This document shows positions 10,178 to 23,431 of a stretch of DNA of 29,232 nt, one piece after another. This DNA comes from a virus. The stretch covers positions 1-29,232 of the IMG/VR virus record IMGVR_UViG_3300034106_002467; one strand, 5' to 3'. The notes beneath the pieces were generated by a model. That model did not search any database. It saw nothing but the letters and a program-made list of their open reading frames with translations, and was not told the DNA's origin. The translations under genes and the position numbers were made by a program. How positions within the stretch are numbered: position 1 is the stretch's first letter; each line of letters starts with the position of its first letter.

Positions 10178-11449
10178 ATGAGCGTTTCGCTTTCCCCATA
10201 CGCTGGCGCCGGGGCGCAGTTCTTCGACAACAACGGCAACCCGCTGGCCGGGGGTAAAATTTTTACTTATGCCGCCGGCACGACGACGCCGCTAGCAACC
10301 TACACGGATTACACGGGCAACACGGCTAATCCCGTGTATCCGGTGGGCATCGTGCTGGACAGCGCCGGACGAACGCCCGCGCAGATCTGGCTGACGGAAG
10401 GATCGTCGTACAAGTTCGTGCTGGAAACGGCTCTTGGCGTCACGATCAAGACCGACGACAACATCTTTGCGTCGTACGAATTGGCCAAAGCCGTCGGTAT
10501 TGCTGTCGGTTTGGGCGCCGGCAGCGTTCCGACCAACATCGCTGTGGGCGACACGGCGCTGGACAGCAACACCACGGGCTCCAACAACACCGCAGTGGGC
10601 TACAACGCCCTGACGGCCAACACGGACGGCTTCCAGAACACCGCCGTTGGCTCCGAGGCGCTGGATGCGAACACCTCGGGCGACTACAACACTGCGGTGG
10701 GCTTCCAAGCGCTGACAGCGGCCAACATTGCAAACTACAACACTGGCGTGGGCTATCGGACGCTAAATGCGGCCACTACCGGCGCAAACAATACTGCGTT
10801 GGGTAGCGATGCGCTGTTGTTGGTGTCCACGGGCTCTAACAACGTGGCGGTGGGGTACTCGGCGCTGGACGCTTACACCGGCAGCGATGCCGTGGCCGTG
10901 GGGGCTCTTGCGCTGGGAGCAAACACCAACGGCCCAGGCAACACTGCGGTGGGCAGAGGTGCGGCGCAACTGGTGGTTACGGGCGCGTACAACGTTGCCG
11001 TTGGGTGGGCTGCGCTGGATGCGGCTACCACCAGCAACAACGTAGCGGTTGGTGCAGACGCCTTGGGCGCACTGACAAGTGGGGACAACAACACCGCAAT
11101 AGGGTTTCAAGCCGGCAGTTCTATTGTGTCCGGCAGCGGAAACATTGTTATTGGCCATAGCGCCGCCGCATCATCCTCAAGCGTCAGCAACGAAATGACG
11201 CTGGGCAGCACCAACATTACGTCAATGCGCGTGCCGGGTTTGTTTATGACGGTCGGTCAGAAATGGATCAACAACAGCACACTCACGGTGGCGATTTTGC
11301 TTGCTAGCGCGCCAGCTGCTACTGTCGGCGCAGGCGCTCGCGCCGTAGTAACGGACGCCAGCGCAACGACTTTTCATTCGATCGTAGCCGGCGGCGGCGC
11401 GAACGTCGTGCCCGTGTTCAGCGACGGCACTGATTGGCGGATTGGGTGA
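10178..11449 (+). CDS. Tail fibre with YadA-type repeats
   Basis: A 423-residue protein. Residues 11-100 form a virion-attachment-type domain (FFDNNGNPLAGGKIFTYAAG, then SAGRTPAQIWLTEGSSYKFVL) common to podovirus fibres. About residues 115-336 hold roughly 13 repeats of about 17 residues with core NxAVGxxAL, like the YadA head left-handed beta-roll. The C-terminal 85 residues include GARAVVTDASATTF and end VFSDGTDWRIG, a common phage tail end. The protein is most likely a trimeric receptor-binding fibre. There is no visible tailspike enzyme domain, intramolecular chaperone or adjacent reverse transcriptase, so no diversity-generating system is indicated. Confidence 0.83.
   Translation: MSVSLSPYAGAGAQFFDNNGNPLAGGKIFTYAAGTTTPLATYTDYTGNTANPVYPVGIVLDSAGRTPAQIWLTEGSSYKFVLETALGVTIKTDDNIFASYELAKAVGIAVGLGAGSVPTNIAVGDTALDSNTTGSNNTAVGYNALTANTDGFQNTAVGSEALDANTSGDYNTAVGFQALTAANIANYNTGVGYRTLNAATTGANNTALGSDALLLVSTGSNNVAVGYSALDAYTGSDAVAVGALALGANTNGPGNTAVGRGAAQLVVTGAYNVAVGWAALDAATTSNNVAVGADALGALTSGDNNTAIGFQAGSSIVSGSGNIVIGHSAAASSSSVSNEMTLGSTNITSMRVPGLFMTVGQKWINNSTLTVAILLASAPAATVGAGARAVVTDASATTFHSIVAGGGANVVPVFSDGTDWRIG
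10520..11185 (+). repeat. About 13 YadA-type coding repeats
   Basis: In-frame repeats of about 51 bases encode units such as GSNNTAVGYNALTANTD and GDYNTAVGFQALTAAN. The core is N-[TV]-[AG]-[VL]-G followed by AL or similar. Units vary from 16 to 19 residues and the DNA is well diverged, so the array is not a recent slippage product. Confidence 0.8.
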
Positions 11450-19786: not shown

Positions 19787-19932
19787 TTGATCCTCCTTGC
19801 CGGCACCGCCAGCAGCCAACGGTCACCCAGCAAGCGGATCGCGCGGATCCACTGCCGGGTGTTGTGTCGATCCGTCCGGCGGTCGCCGGATGCCCACAGG
19901 GCGCGTGCGCGGCGCAGCATCCGGGTGTTCAC
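19783..19932 (-). CDS. 49-residue basic protein
   Basis: The reading frame from GTG at 19932 to TGA at 19783 encodes 49 residues (NTRMLRRARALWASGDRRTD, followed by RHNTRQWIRAIRLLGDRWLL). It starts inside the upstream stop region and ends with a 4-base overlap with the next start, where its final codons also serve as that gene's ribosome site. It is basic and Trp-containing, like the 50-residue protein downstream. I recall similar short proteins in other phages; function unknown. Confidence 0.65.
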   Translation of the reverse strand: MNTRMLRRARALWASGDRRTDRHNTRQWIRAIRLLGDRWLLAVPARRIK

Positions 19933-20507
19933 TCTGCTTGCTCCTCAAAACGCGTCACGCGGAAAGTGCCGAACGGGCCACGCTTCTCCGGGCGGAAGTC
20001 GCCGATGCCAATGCTCAGGCCGGACTGCTCCAGCAGCATCTGCGCGTCTTCGACCTTCATCAGAGTATCGTCCACGCCGATGCTGAACTTCAGCCCCCAG
20101 CAGTCAAACCTGGGGCGGTGCCGCATCACGCGACCCTTGGTGGCGGGGATCGTGACCGGCCGTGAGTCCACCTCGTAATCGGTAGCGGGGCCGGAGCCGT
20201 TCATCACCGTGATGGTGGGCTCAAAGATGCGAATCGCACTGGGCACGATAAACCGCATCGACTTGCGCGACCCGGGCATTTTGTAGTTCGTGCCGGCCGC
20301 CCCCATCGCGTTGGGGATGGCGAACGCGCTGATGTAGAACGTGCCATCGGGGTGCCGGTAGGCAACCTTCTCCGCCTGCTCGCGTGGGGTGCCTCGGTTC
20401 TGCACAACGCCGCGCGCCTTGCCACTGCTGGAGGTTTCCGCTTCCTCGCCGAAACGGTGCATCAGAAGAGGTTGAATGCCACGAATTTCAATGTTGATCA
20501 GTTTCAC
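19929..20507 (-). CDS. RAMP-like protein in the recombination operon
   Basis: A 192-residue protein. The GTG at 20507 is preferred because GGAG lies eight bases upstream; an upstream GTG at 20534 has no such site. It begins KLINIEIRGIQPLLMHRFGE and contains TPREQAEKVAYRHPDGTFYI, then FAIPNAMGAAGTNYKMPG, and ends GLSIGIGDFRPEKRGPFGTF. A beta-rich body plus a Gly-rich loop with a terminal FG-x-F strand resembles RAMP-fold proteins such as Cas7, by eye only. It lies in the operon with the exonuclease and RecT-like protein, where many phages encode a single-strand DNA-binding protein. A nucleic-acid-binding role is the leading guess. Confidence 0.7.
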   Translation of the reverse strand: MKLINIEIRGIQPLLMHRFGEEAETSSSGKARGVVQNRGTPREQAEKVAYRHPDGTFYISAFAIPNAMGAAGTNYKMPGSRKSMRFIVPSAIRIFEPTITVMNGSGPATDYEVDSRPVTIPATKGRVMRHRPRFDCWGLKFSIGVDDTLMKVEDAQMLLEQSGLSIGIGDFRPEKRGPFGTFRVTRFEEQAE

Positions 20508-20550
20508 GTCAAATCTCCGTTGGTTAAAACACACTCACATTTGGGCGAAA

Positions 20551-20862
20551 TTGCCCTGCCACGCCTCGCCACGCCTTGCCTCGCCGCGCCTCGCCACGCC
20601 TCGCCTTGCCTAGCCAAGCCTCGCCACGTACCATGCCTTGCCTTGCCGTGCCGCGTACCTTGCCTTGCCAAGCCTCGCCAGGCCATGCCACGCCTCGCCG
20701 CGCATCGCCACGCCAGGCCGTGCCTCGCCACGTACCATGCCTTGCCTTGCCGGGCCTTGCCGGGCCCCGCCCAGCCATGCCAAGCCTCGCCATGTACCTT
20801 GCCTTGCCACGCTTCGCCGCGCATCGCCTCGCCTTGCCCCGCCTCGCCAGGCCATGTACCAC
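20551..20862. repeat. GGCNN pentanucleotide array
   Basis: About 310 bases consist almost only of NNGCC pentamers on the plus strand (GGCNN on the minus strand), roughly 60 units. The GCC is nearly constant while the two other bases vary widely. Four 7-base units of the form (A/G)(C/T)GTACC shift the phase. It fills the gap 20508-20864 between the excisionase-like gene and the RAMP-like gene. As stop codons are rare in this pattern, many artificial frames cross it. Low-complexity tracts of this type are something I recall from other phages; their function is not known to me. Confidence 0.9.
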
Positions 20863-20864
20863 GA

Positions 20865-21041
20865 TCAACGCTCGGCCTCAGCCTCGTAAGCCAGCACGTC
20901 GGCCAAGCGGTAGCGGGCCTGGCCGCCGATCTTCAGCCACGTCGGGCCTTTGCCCTGGTGTCGCCAGTTTTCCAGCGTGCCCACGGCGACCTTCCACCTG
21001 GTGGCCAGTTCTTCGGTGGTCAGCAGTTCGTCTTCGTTCAT
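20865..21041 (-). CDS. Excisionase/MerR-like HTH protein
   Basis: A 58-residue protein from ATG 21041, overlapping the RecT-like stop (ATGA). The sequence LLTTEELATRWKVAVGTLENWRHQGKGPTWLKIGGQARYR is a winged MerR-type helix-turn-helix of the kind used by excisionases and small phage regulators (HTH_17). The Trp pair and RYR wing end are typical. No integrase gene or attachment site is in the window, so an excision role cannot be assumed. Control of transcription or replication is equally possible. Confidence 0.82.
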   Translation of the reverse strand: MNEDELLTTEELATRWKVAVGTLENWRHQGKGPTWLKIGGQARYRLADVLAYEAEAER

Positions 21042-21787
21042 ACCGCGCCCTCCTCGGTGTCAATGATCTCGGCGTCCACGGGCGGTGCCTGCTCGGCGCG
21101 GATCTCGTTGGCGCGGCGCTGCACTGCGGCAACCACGCGGTCGCGCTCCTTGCCCTTGGGCACGCGGCGCATGTCGGGGCGCAACAGATCGAGGAACTCC
21201 AGCGTGCTGGCGTTTTCGATGCTTTGCACCAGTTTGTCCACGTCGATTGCGGCAGGAGGCGGGGGAGGCGCAACCTCCTCTGCGTCACCCATATCGCGCA
21301 CCGTGCGCTGCGGGGCCATGTCCTCGGCTTCCTCTGGCGTGTAGGTGCCGATGGCCACGCCGGGGTAGATGGTGCGGATGCCCTCGCTGATGCACCTGGC
21401 GCGCAGCATCTGGCGCGGATAGGACTTCCACGTCGGGTTGCGGGTCAGACCGGCGCTGACGGCCATGTCGGTCGTCCACTCAATGCGAACGCTGCCGCCC
21501 TGCGGGTGGGTGAACGTGCCGACGACCTTGCGGTCGGTGTACTCGCCCCATTCGACGCGGCCACCAGCCTGCTGGAACCGCGCCAGCATGGCGTCAGCGC
21601 GCAGCGTGGGTCGGCCGTTGATGACGTGATAATCGCGGGCGGCGATGGCGGGGTGCATTCCTTCGGCCTGCGCGATCAGCATCAGGGCCATCGCTTGGTC
21701 TGGCGTCTTGACGCCGAACAGGCCAGACTTGGCGACGGCCATCGCCATACGCTCTACTTGGTCAACGGGGATCAATGCGGTGCTCAT
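21038..21787 (-). CDS. RecT-like single-strand annealing protein
   Basis: A 249-residue protein with a GAGGAA ribosome site. It carries SGLFGVKTPDQAMALMLIAQ, then MHPAIAARDYHVINGRPTLR, HPQGGSVRIEWTTDMAVSAG, and YPRQMLRARCISEGIRTIYP with PGVAIGTYTPEEAED. These match a phage group usually annotated as RecT-family or annealing proteins. A Pro run and a charged C-terminal domain (about 170-249) follow. The nuclease partner lies upstream in the same operon. Together they would resect double-strand ends and anneal homologous strands. Confidence 0.8.
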   Translation of the reverse strand: MSTALIPVDQVERMAMAVAKSGLFGVKTPDQAMALMLIAQAEGMHPAIAARDYHVINGRPTLRADAMLARFQQAGGRVEWGEYTDRKVVGTFTHPQGGSVRIEWTTDMAVSAGLTRNPTWKSYPRQMLRARCISEGIRTIYPGVAIGTYTPEEAEDMAPQRTVRDMGDAEEVAPPPPPAAIDVDKLVQSIENASTLEFLDLLRPDMRRVPKGKERDRVVAAVQRRANEIRAEQAPPVDAEIIDTEEGAV

Positions 21788-22073: not shown

Positions 22074-22322
22074 TCAGTCAGTCAGGCCCGGGCCTTCTTC
22101 GGCCAGTACGGCTTCGGGCAGGCCCACGGTTTCCACCATGACGCCAGAGGCCATCAGGCTGATGATGTCGTCGTGCGTGGCGGGCGCGATCACGAATTGC
22201 GGCGTGACGTGACGCAGCACGTCGGCCACGGTGTAAGCCCGCACCAGTCGCTCGTTGCCCTCTGCGTCCATCACAGTCCACGCCTTCATCACGCGCGTGT
22301 AGGTGCGCTTCTTGTCGCTCAT
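22074..22322 (-). CDS. Small early protein, unknown
   Basis: An 82-residue protein whose ATG overlaps the exonuclease stop (ATGA). It starts with a basic region (SDKKRTYTRVMKAWTVMDAE), then VRAYTVADVLRHVTPQFVIA and a mixed acidic C-terminus. No known domain was recognised. The tight coupling to the exonuclease suggests an accessory to recombination or a nuclease modulator, but this rests on position only. Confidence 0.7.
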   Translation of the reverse strand: MSDKKRTYTRVMKAWTVMDAEGNERLVRAYTVADVLRHVTPQFVIAPATHDDIISLMASGVMVETVGLPEAVLAEEGPGLTD

Positions 22323-22954
22323 TGCTTTCCTTCCGCAAGACGCCGCAGCGCCTCGACTTTGCTGCCGACCTCTTTGAGGAAAGCCGAGATCCCGAACGCC
22401 AGGTCGGCGATAGCTTTTGGGTCGGCGGGGATGCGCTGGACGTACAGCTGCAGCGGCTCAGGCATACGCGGGTCATACGACACAAAGTCGCACCACTGGC
22501 GGCCGGTGATCCACATCTGGCCCTGCACCTGCGGCATGTGCTCTGCCGGCATACCGCCCAGCAGCGTCTCAATGTGGACCGCACTGTTGTACGGGCACTT
22601 GATCTCAATCAGGCCGTCCCAGTCCACCAGGCCGTCAGGGCTGCAGCCGGCGTACAGGACGTCGTGGGCGACAAAGCCCGTCTCCTCGACCTCAGTGCCT
22701 GTGCTCTGCTCGTAGGCGGCACGCGCTGCGGCTTCCTGCTCGGTGCCCCAGAGCATGGCGGCAGTGGTGAACTTCTGGACGGGCTGGCCGGTCAGGCGCT
22801 CGACGACCAGTTCGGTGAGGTAGTCGCGCTGGGCCTGTGCGGGCTGGCCGTTCTTCAGCGTGGCCATCGCGTCCTTGAACCGGGACGCAGTGGCCTTGCC
22901 GCACCTAGCGGCGTACCAGTCGTCATCGCGCTGGGTGGCGGTTTCTAAGATCAT
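22319..22954 (-). CDS. YqaJ/lambda-type exonuclease
   Basis: Start chosen at ATG 22954; the frame extending upstream to 22993 begins inside the preceding gene. The 211-residue product has QRDDDWYAARCGKATASRFK at the N-terminus, as in this family. The PD-(D/E)xK core is SPDGLVDWDGLIEIKCP, with Asp107, Glu117 and Lys119 as the likely metal-binding residues. QVQGQMWITG contributes the conserved Gln. This is a 5'-3' double-strand exonuclease fold of the lambda exo/YqaJ type. It is coupled in one operon with a RecT-like protein, a normal pair. Confidence 0.9.
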   Translation of the reverse strand: MILETATQRDDDWYAARCGKATASRFKDAMATLKNGQPAQAQRDYLTELVVERLTGQPVQKFTTAAMLWGTEQEAAARAAYEQSTGTEVEETGFVAHDVLYAGCSPDGLVDWDGLIEIKCPYNSAVHIETLLGGMPAEHMPQVQGQMWITGRQWCDFVSYDPRMPEPLQLYVQRIPADPKAIADLAFGISAFLKEVGSKVEALRRLAEGKQ

Positions 22955-22965
22955 GCTGCGCCCCT

Positions 22966-23370
22966 TCAAAACCAAAGGTGTGAATCGTCGCACTCGGCGC
23001 GCTTGAGGTCTTCCTCGTAGCGCTCCCAGGCCCGCGACGTGATGTCGCCGTCTTTAGCCCGCAAATAGCGCACGCGCAACTCATACACTGCGGGAATGAT
23101 GCGGTCAATGTGGCCGGCGAACACCAGGGCGATCAACTGATCGGCAGTGGCCTGCTGCAACTCGGCAGGCACGATCAGCAGATCTACGGGCGTCTCGTCG
23201 GCGGTTGCCTCGTGGGCAAGCCAGTCGACGACGAACAACGGCGTGCGGGCGATCTCGTTTTTGGCCGCCTCGATGTCGAGGTCGATGTCTTCGTAGTCAT
23301 ACCTCGGGTCATGGGGGTGACCCGTGAACGGGCCGTAGTCCGGGTCGTAGTAGGCTTGGCTGATTCTCAT
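22966..23370 (-). CDS. Acidic early protein, first of the operon
   Basis: A 134-residue protein; the ATG at 23370 is preferred because AGGAG lies just upstream, over an extension to 23412. The N-terminus is Tyr/Asp/Pro-rich (YYDPDYGPFTGHPHDPRYDY), followed by a strongly acidic helix. The second half is a mixed alpha/beta stretch (LLIVPAELQQATADQLIALV). The function is unknown. As the first gene after the probable promoter and just ahead of the exonuclease, it may inhibit a host nuclease (as acidic Gam-like proteins do), but there is no sequence similarity to support that. Confidence 0.7.
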   Translation of the reverse strand: MRISQAYYDPDYGPFTGHPHDPRYDYEDIDLDIEAAKNEIARTPLFVVDWLAHEATADETPVDLLIVPAELQQATADQLIALVFAGHIDRIIPAVYELRVRYLRAKDGDITSRAWERYEEDLKRAECDDSHLWF

Positions 23371-23402
23371 CGTCTGCTCCTGTTTTGTTTGGGGACGGAC
23401 GG

Positions 23403-23431
23403 ATGTTGCCACGATGGCCCACGAAGGTCAA
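23403..23431 (-). promoter_or_regulatory. Sigma70-like promoter for the leftward early operon
   Basis: On the minus strand TTGACC (plus positions 23426-23431) is followed after 17 bases by CAACAT (23403-23408). The -35 matches consensus at five of six positions; the -10 keeps the second A, fifth A and final T. The predicted start lies about 25 bases before the ATG at 23370. On the opposite strand TACAAT at 23433-23438 could serve as a -10 for the rightward operon, but its -35 is poor. Confidence 0.45.

Follow-up and report, generated by a model that had tools for sequence, protein, structure and literature searches.

A punctuated GGCNN pentamer tract beside a phage RAMP protein gene, very probably a VIPR guide array

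What a long non-coding tract of pentamers, with a fixed core and a variable remainder, does inside a recombination operon is the question raised by the viral DNA analysed here, positions 1 to 29,232 of IMG/VR record IMGVR_UViG_3300034106_002467 (referred to below as the window). The record encodes a P22-like coat protein. On its minus strand the operon comprises, in order, a protein of unknown function (22966-23412), a YqaJ exonuclease, a RecT-like protein, an HTH_17 protein, the tract and a 192-aa RAMP-like protein. A sequence-only reading had already described this setting, with the exonuclease, RecT-like and RAMP-like proteins, correctly.

A system that offers a comparison is VIPR (Viral Interference Programmable Repeat; PMC13142463, a bioRxiv 2026 preprint), in which a phage RAMP protein, Vipr, acts with guide RNAs (vrRNA) composed of alternating GGY and NN. 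The NNs recognise DNA with one base skipped, usually the wobble position of a codon, and competing elements are repressed. Vipr is a RAMP that weighs about 20 kD and has a glycine-rich loop; the non-coding GGY/NN pentamers number 9–16 per vrRNA and are hypervariable at NN. The arrays are intergenic, flank vipr, are mostly encoded by viruses or proviruses and are accompanied by an accessory vap gene, DNA-binding vaps being carried by types II, VI and VII out of seven. Each vrRNA ends in an invariant structured 3′ tail, is expressed and co-purifies with Vipr. VIPR, with its gapped RNA code, has been put forward as an ancestor-like relative of CRISPR (PMC13142463). A literature search found no other VIPR paper.

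Structure of the pentamer tract

Read on the minus strand, the 310 bp between 20551 and 20860 consist solely of 55 pentamers and five GGTACNN heptamers, which partition the array into runs of 11, 11, 14, 4 and 15 units (Table 1). The flanks are the stop codon of the 58-aa HTH gene (20865) and the start codon of the RAMP gene (20507). The pentamer core is GGC in 52 units, TGC in two and AGC in one. Six successive GGCNN units, one mismatch being allowed, were matched 30 times in the window, always inside the tract (30/30), compared with 0.00 times in 100 dinucleotide shuffles. The tract proposed in the sequence-only reading is thus real and far beyond chance, but its estimates of about 60 NNGCC pentamers and four GTACC-containing seven-base units have to be corrected to 55 and five.

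Table 1. Coordinates of the array, its parts and the neighbouring genes (runs and heptamers in order of the minus strand; NN letters given for each run)
Feature	Position	Strand	Basis
Putative vrRNA array, 55 GGCNN pentamers, five runs split by GGTACNN	20551..20860	minus	unit parsing, shuffle test
Putative boundary heptamer 1, GGTACAT, array 5′ end	20854..20860	minus	
Putative guide run 1, 11 units: CT GA GG AA GA GA GC GA GT AA AA	20799..20853	minus	
Putative boundary heptamer 2, GGTACAT	20792..20798	minus	
Putative guide run 2, 11 units: GA TT AT TG GG CC AA CC AA AA AT	20737..20791	minus	
Putative boundary heptamer 3, GGTACGT	20730..20736	minus	
Putative guide run 3, 14 units: GA AC CT GT GA GC GA GT AT CT GA TT AA AA	20660..20729	minus	
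Putative boundary heptamer 4, GGTACGC	20653..20659	minus	
Run 4, 4 units: AC AA AA AT	20633..20652	minus	
Putative boundary heptamer 5, GGTACGT	20626..20632	minus	
Putative guide run 5, 15 units: GA TT TA AA GA GT GA GC GA AA GT GA GT AG AA	20551..20625	minus	
Candidate 3′ tail hairpin GGGC-AATTTC-GCCC, after last run	20543..20556	minus	
Putative vipr, RAMP protein, 192 aa from GTG, phrog_4652, C-terminal glycine-rich loop GIGDFRPEKRGPFG	19929..20507	minus	alignment, AlphaFold, PDB comparison
58-aa HTH_17 protein, candidate accessory (vap) gene	20865..21041	minus	role inferred
RecT-like annealing protein, operon neighbour	21038..21787	minus	
YqaJ exonuclease, operon neighbour	22319..22993	minus	

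The ends of the runs are constant: GGCAA or GGCAT stands ahead of GGTAC, and the final units before it are nearly invariant (AA, AT), which leaves about 7–12 information-bearing units per run. Run 4 is probably a decayed guide. The hairpin behind the last run has a counterpart, GGGCA-ATTTC-TGCCC, in a related contig (L151), and no common or clear invariant tail was found behind the internal runs of the window array. Runs 1 and 3 have GGCGATGCGCGGCGA in common, including a rare TGC core, which suggests that pieces of guides were duplicated within the array. A separate repeat, of 51 bp in about 3.6 tandem copies (10534-10719), lies within the gene at 10178-11449.

CRISPR-Cas arrays consist of near-identical repeats of about 24–48 nt with unique spacers between them. 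The repeating units here measure only 5 and 7 nt, so that the tract is not an array of that kind, and scans for Rfam families and tRNAs gave no match. The tract might also be regarded as a coding repeat, since frames across it are open (a 106-aa or similar ORF, for example ORF 20504-20824). GGCNN can form a stop codon only through a TA unit, however, so that open frames are expected and the ORFs are a by-product; the heptamers, and changes in unit number among relatives, furthermore shift the frame. We give a coding origin almost no credence.

The adjoining RAMP protein and its association with arrays in other viruses

The product of the gene next to the array matches phrog_4652, annotated there as of unknown function, and has no matching family in PADLOC, Pfam or NCBIfam. 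An AlphaFold model computed with an alignment of 40 relatives reached a pLDDT of 85.6 and a pTM of 0.80. In comparisons with the PDB the model came closest to Csm3/Cas7 RAMPs from CRISPR effectors of types III and VII (Foldseek E 2.6e-6; VIA-align Z 11.5 with an rmsd of 4.0 across 160 residues). A glycine-rich loop is expected in RAMPs, and the alignment of relatives shows one, GIGDFRPEKRGPFG, conserved at the C-terminus.

Whether such arrays generally accompany this protein was addressed with a pattern of eight successive GGCNN units, run against viral contigs and yielding at least 120 loci selected by GGCNN runs only. With a profile derived from the alignment of Vipr relatives, the protein was found in 82 of the 120 listed loci, with the nearest array at most 731 bp away, and in none of 74 control loci fetched with other patterns. 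Array and Vipr gene lie on one strand in 81 of these 82 listed matches, which points to an RNA. The array is downstream of vipr in 68 of the listed loci and upstream in 14, the arrangement of the window. The remaining 38 of the 120 listed array loci (L019 to L138) gave no match to the profile and may belong to other types of Vipr, lie on truncated contigs or be repeats of an unrelated kind. Only two of the 120 listed loci have the GGTACNN layout, which therefore looks clade-specific and appears to be confined to the clade of the window phage. Outside this clade, a GGCNN array adjoins a phrog_4652 gene in the Mycobacterium phages Donkeykong and Quico, and Donkeykong gp49 matches Vipr with an E value of 1.7e-58. 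In one further locus (L186, upstream of 6001) pentamers near a Vipr gene read NNGCC, on the strand opposite vipr, contrary to the usual orientation.

These associations bear on a second reading, in which the tract would be a platform of double-stranded DNA, with a GGC every half turn, bound by RecT, the HTH protein or another product of the operon at a site of recombination or replication. The regular spacing and the adjoining RecT-like, YqaJ exonuclease and HTH genes would fit it, but elsewhere the array stands beside a RAMP gene in many contigs, in its sense strand in 81 of the 82 listed matches, and the codon-like NN letters described below would be left unexplained; we regard it as very improbable. 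Among the suggestions of the sequence-only reading, a tie to the RAMP-like protein is borne out: the array most likely serves it, as RNA, whereas a role for RecT or a MerR-like protein is unsupported, the arrays of other phages adjoining the RAMP gene. For the same reason, together with the shared strand, its suggestion of a recombination hot spot was rejected, and that of an origin-related tract found no support.

Constant cores, variable letters

The comparison with homologous phages that the sequence-only reading had advised finds the array at the same place. One contig (L143) has an array identical to that of the window. Five others (L139, L140, L141, L144 and L147), whose Vipr proteins are 99–100% identical, have their array at this place, in the GGTACNN layout and between similar flanks, and differ from the window in NN letters and unit numbers; in L144 one run is present twice. 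Across ten homologous run pairs, from relatives that are not independent, none of 306 core sites differs, against 31 of 204 NN sites. This bears out the earlier claim that the core is held constant by selection as the remainder diversifies, and also the view that simple slippage is insufficient, core and NN diverging so unequally. A degenerate microsatellite, derived by slippage from an ancestral GGCNN unit and without function, could account for the shuffling and duplication of runs (GGCGATGCGCGGCGA in runs 1 and 3, the doubled run of L144), but not for this inequality, nor for a tie to one protein family across unrelated phages, and its likelihood seems to us negligible.

The unit-by-unit composition, also advised earlier, proved informative. 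The entropy of NN is about 1.7 bits per position, and the two positions differ: among the first 54 units the first N is G in 25, A in 19, C in 5 and T in 5, and the second is A in 27, T in 16, C in 7 and G in 4, a difference reached by none of 20,000 random swaps. When the six codon registers were compared, positions 1-2 in sense were best for the window and for its clade, with log2-likelihoods of -206 vs -221 for the next register in the window and of -1366 vs -1449 in the clade, where the relatives are not independent; the model is the generic composition of the window phage's own genes, so that the test is indirect. Within that limit the composition fits guides that were copied from coding sequence and pass over the wobble base, a fit that requires no known target. 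The variable NN are probably the information, that is the guide sequence, and GGC the scaffold.

A very probable VIPR system with its own array layout

We consider it very probable that the tract serves a phage VIPR system as its vrRNA array and that the gene at 19929-20507 encodes the Vipr RAMP of that system. The basis found here is the structure of the array, the RAMP fold, the linkage and shared strand, the conserved core with variable NN, and the codon-like character of NN. Set against the VIPR features, the RAMP-fold protein is of about 20 kD (192 aa) and carries the conserved loop; the runs of 11, 11, 14 and 15 pentamers lie within the range of 9–16, beside one run of 4; the array is intergenic and flanks vipr on one strand; and the system is encoded by a virus. 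By analogy, the HTH gene is a candidate vap.

Expression of the window copy, the role of GGTACNN as a guide boundary and the identity of the targets we infer from analogy; the formation of an RNP, the one-base skip and repression are carried over from other VIPRs (PMC13142463). Transcription of the minus strand would most likely give an RNA built of GGC/NN units and holding several guides, cut or bounded at GGTACNN, which breaks the five-base register and would mark the limits of guides of about 9–15 units. Vipr subunits would assemble on each run at the GGC positions and leave the two NN bases exposed for pairing with double-stranded DNA in the pattern NNxNNx..., the skipped target base being usually a codon wobble. 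The complex on DNA would then block transcription and so repress genes of competitors, be these phages, prophages or satellites.

The kind of system, VIPR, is already known, if very recent; what is new is an example with its own array layout. As in VIPR, a small phage RAMP stands beside non-coding GGY/NN runs on one strand, with hypervariable NN of codon 1-2 character, whereas the guides of the window form a single compact tract, punctuated by GGTACNN, that follows the RecT/HTH operon and precedes vipr, and a shared structured tail per guide is not evident (PMC13142463). We would propose only tentatively, leaning slightly against it, that GGTACNN serves as a minimal punctuation repeat, seven bases long, between consecutive guides of one transcript, giving a compact multi-guide array like a miniature CRISPR without individual tails. 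Such a layout is not described in detail in the text of the preprint, which mentions staggered overlapping arrays (fig. S18); it may be a distinct sub-variant or correspond to those arrays (PMC13142463). The predicted fold and loop resemble those of type III Csm3/Cas7, which suggests by analogy a backbone on the guide RNA. Type III CRISPR-Cas differs in that the window has no CRISPR repeats of usual length and a single RAMP, of about 11% identity, and in guide periodicity (5 in the window, 6 in type III).

The window offers an independent environmental case of VIPR, in which the turnover of guides can be traced because those of relatives differ letter by letter, and the GGTACNN layout a way to study several guides from one transcript. 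Viral metagenomes commonly contain such arrays, and searching for a plain GGCNN pattern is enough to find them.

Targets were sought with exact one-base-skip probes of 8–9 units from runs 1, 2, 3 and 5 and from runs of two relatives (L149 and L147). Matches in viral contigs numbered 35 for run 3, two for run 2, 31 for run 5 and three for run 1, and two and one for the relatives' runs; none extended clearly above chance. In 36 related phage records the guides matched no better than a reversed control, and no target within the window exceeded control. An all-against-all skip test over about 2.2 Mb of fetched loci gave no convincing target; its skip-1 excess over shuffled guides is confounded, and biased, by loci fetched with the guide pattern itself. 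The targets are likely to be satellites or prophages of the host, and these may be absent from the collections. Among bacterial genomes searched for the host, MAGs gave distant Vipr relatives only, and none of 299 genomes of one phylum held a close RecT relative.

In Pseudomonas phage vB_Pae_LESphi2 of P. aeruginosa LESB58 (L258, 3590-3890) the region upstream of a distant homologue of Vipr contains three GGY/NN runs, and behind each run stands a similar tail, GGCAAGGGCTG-like or GGCGAGGGCTG-like. The gp48/gp49 locus of Donkeykong and that of Quico (Cheoctovirus) resemble the window in that the array adjoins the phrog_4652 protein on the same strand, and differ in that it is interrupted by GGCA and GGCACGACAT, not by GGTACNN, and that its place is downstream of the Vipr gene. 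The annotation of Donkeykong puts the GGCNN array within the gene of a hypothetical protein, gp48 (L017, 5953-6339), which is probably a mis-annotated vrRNA array.
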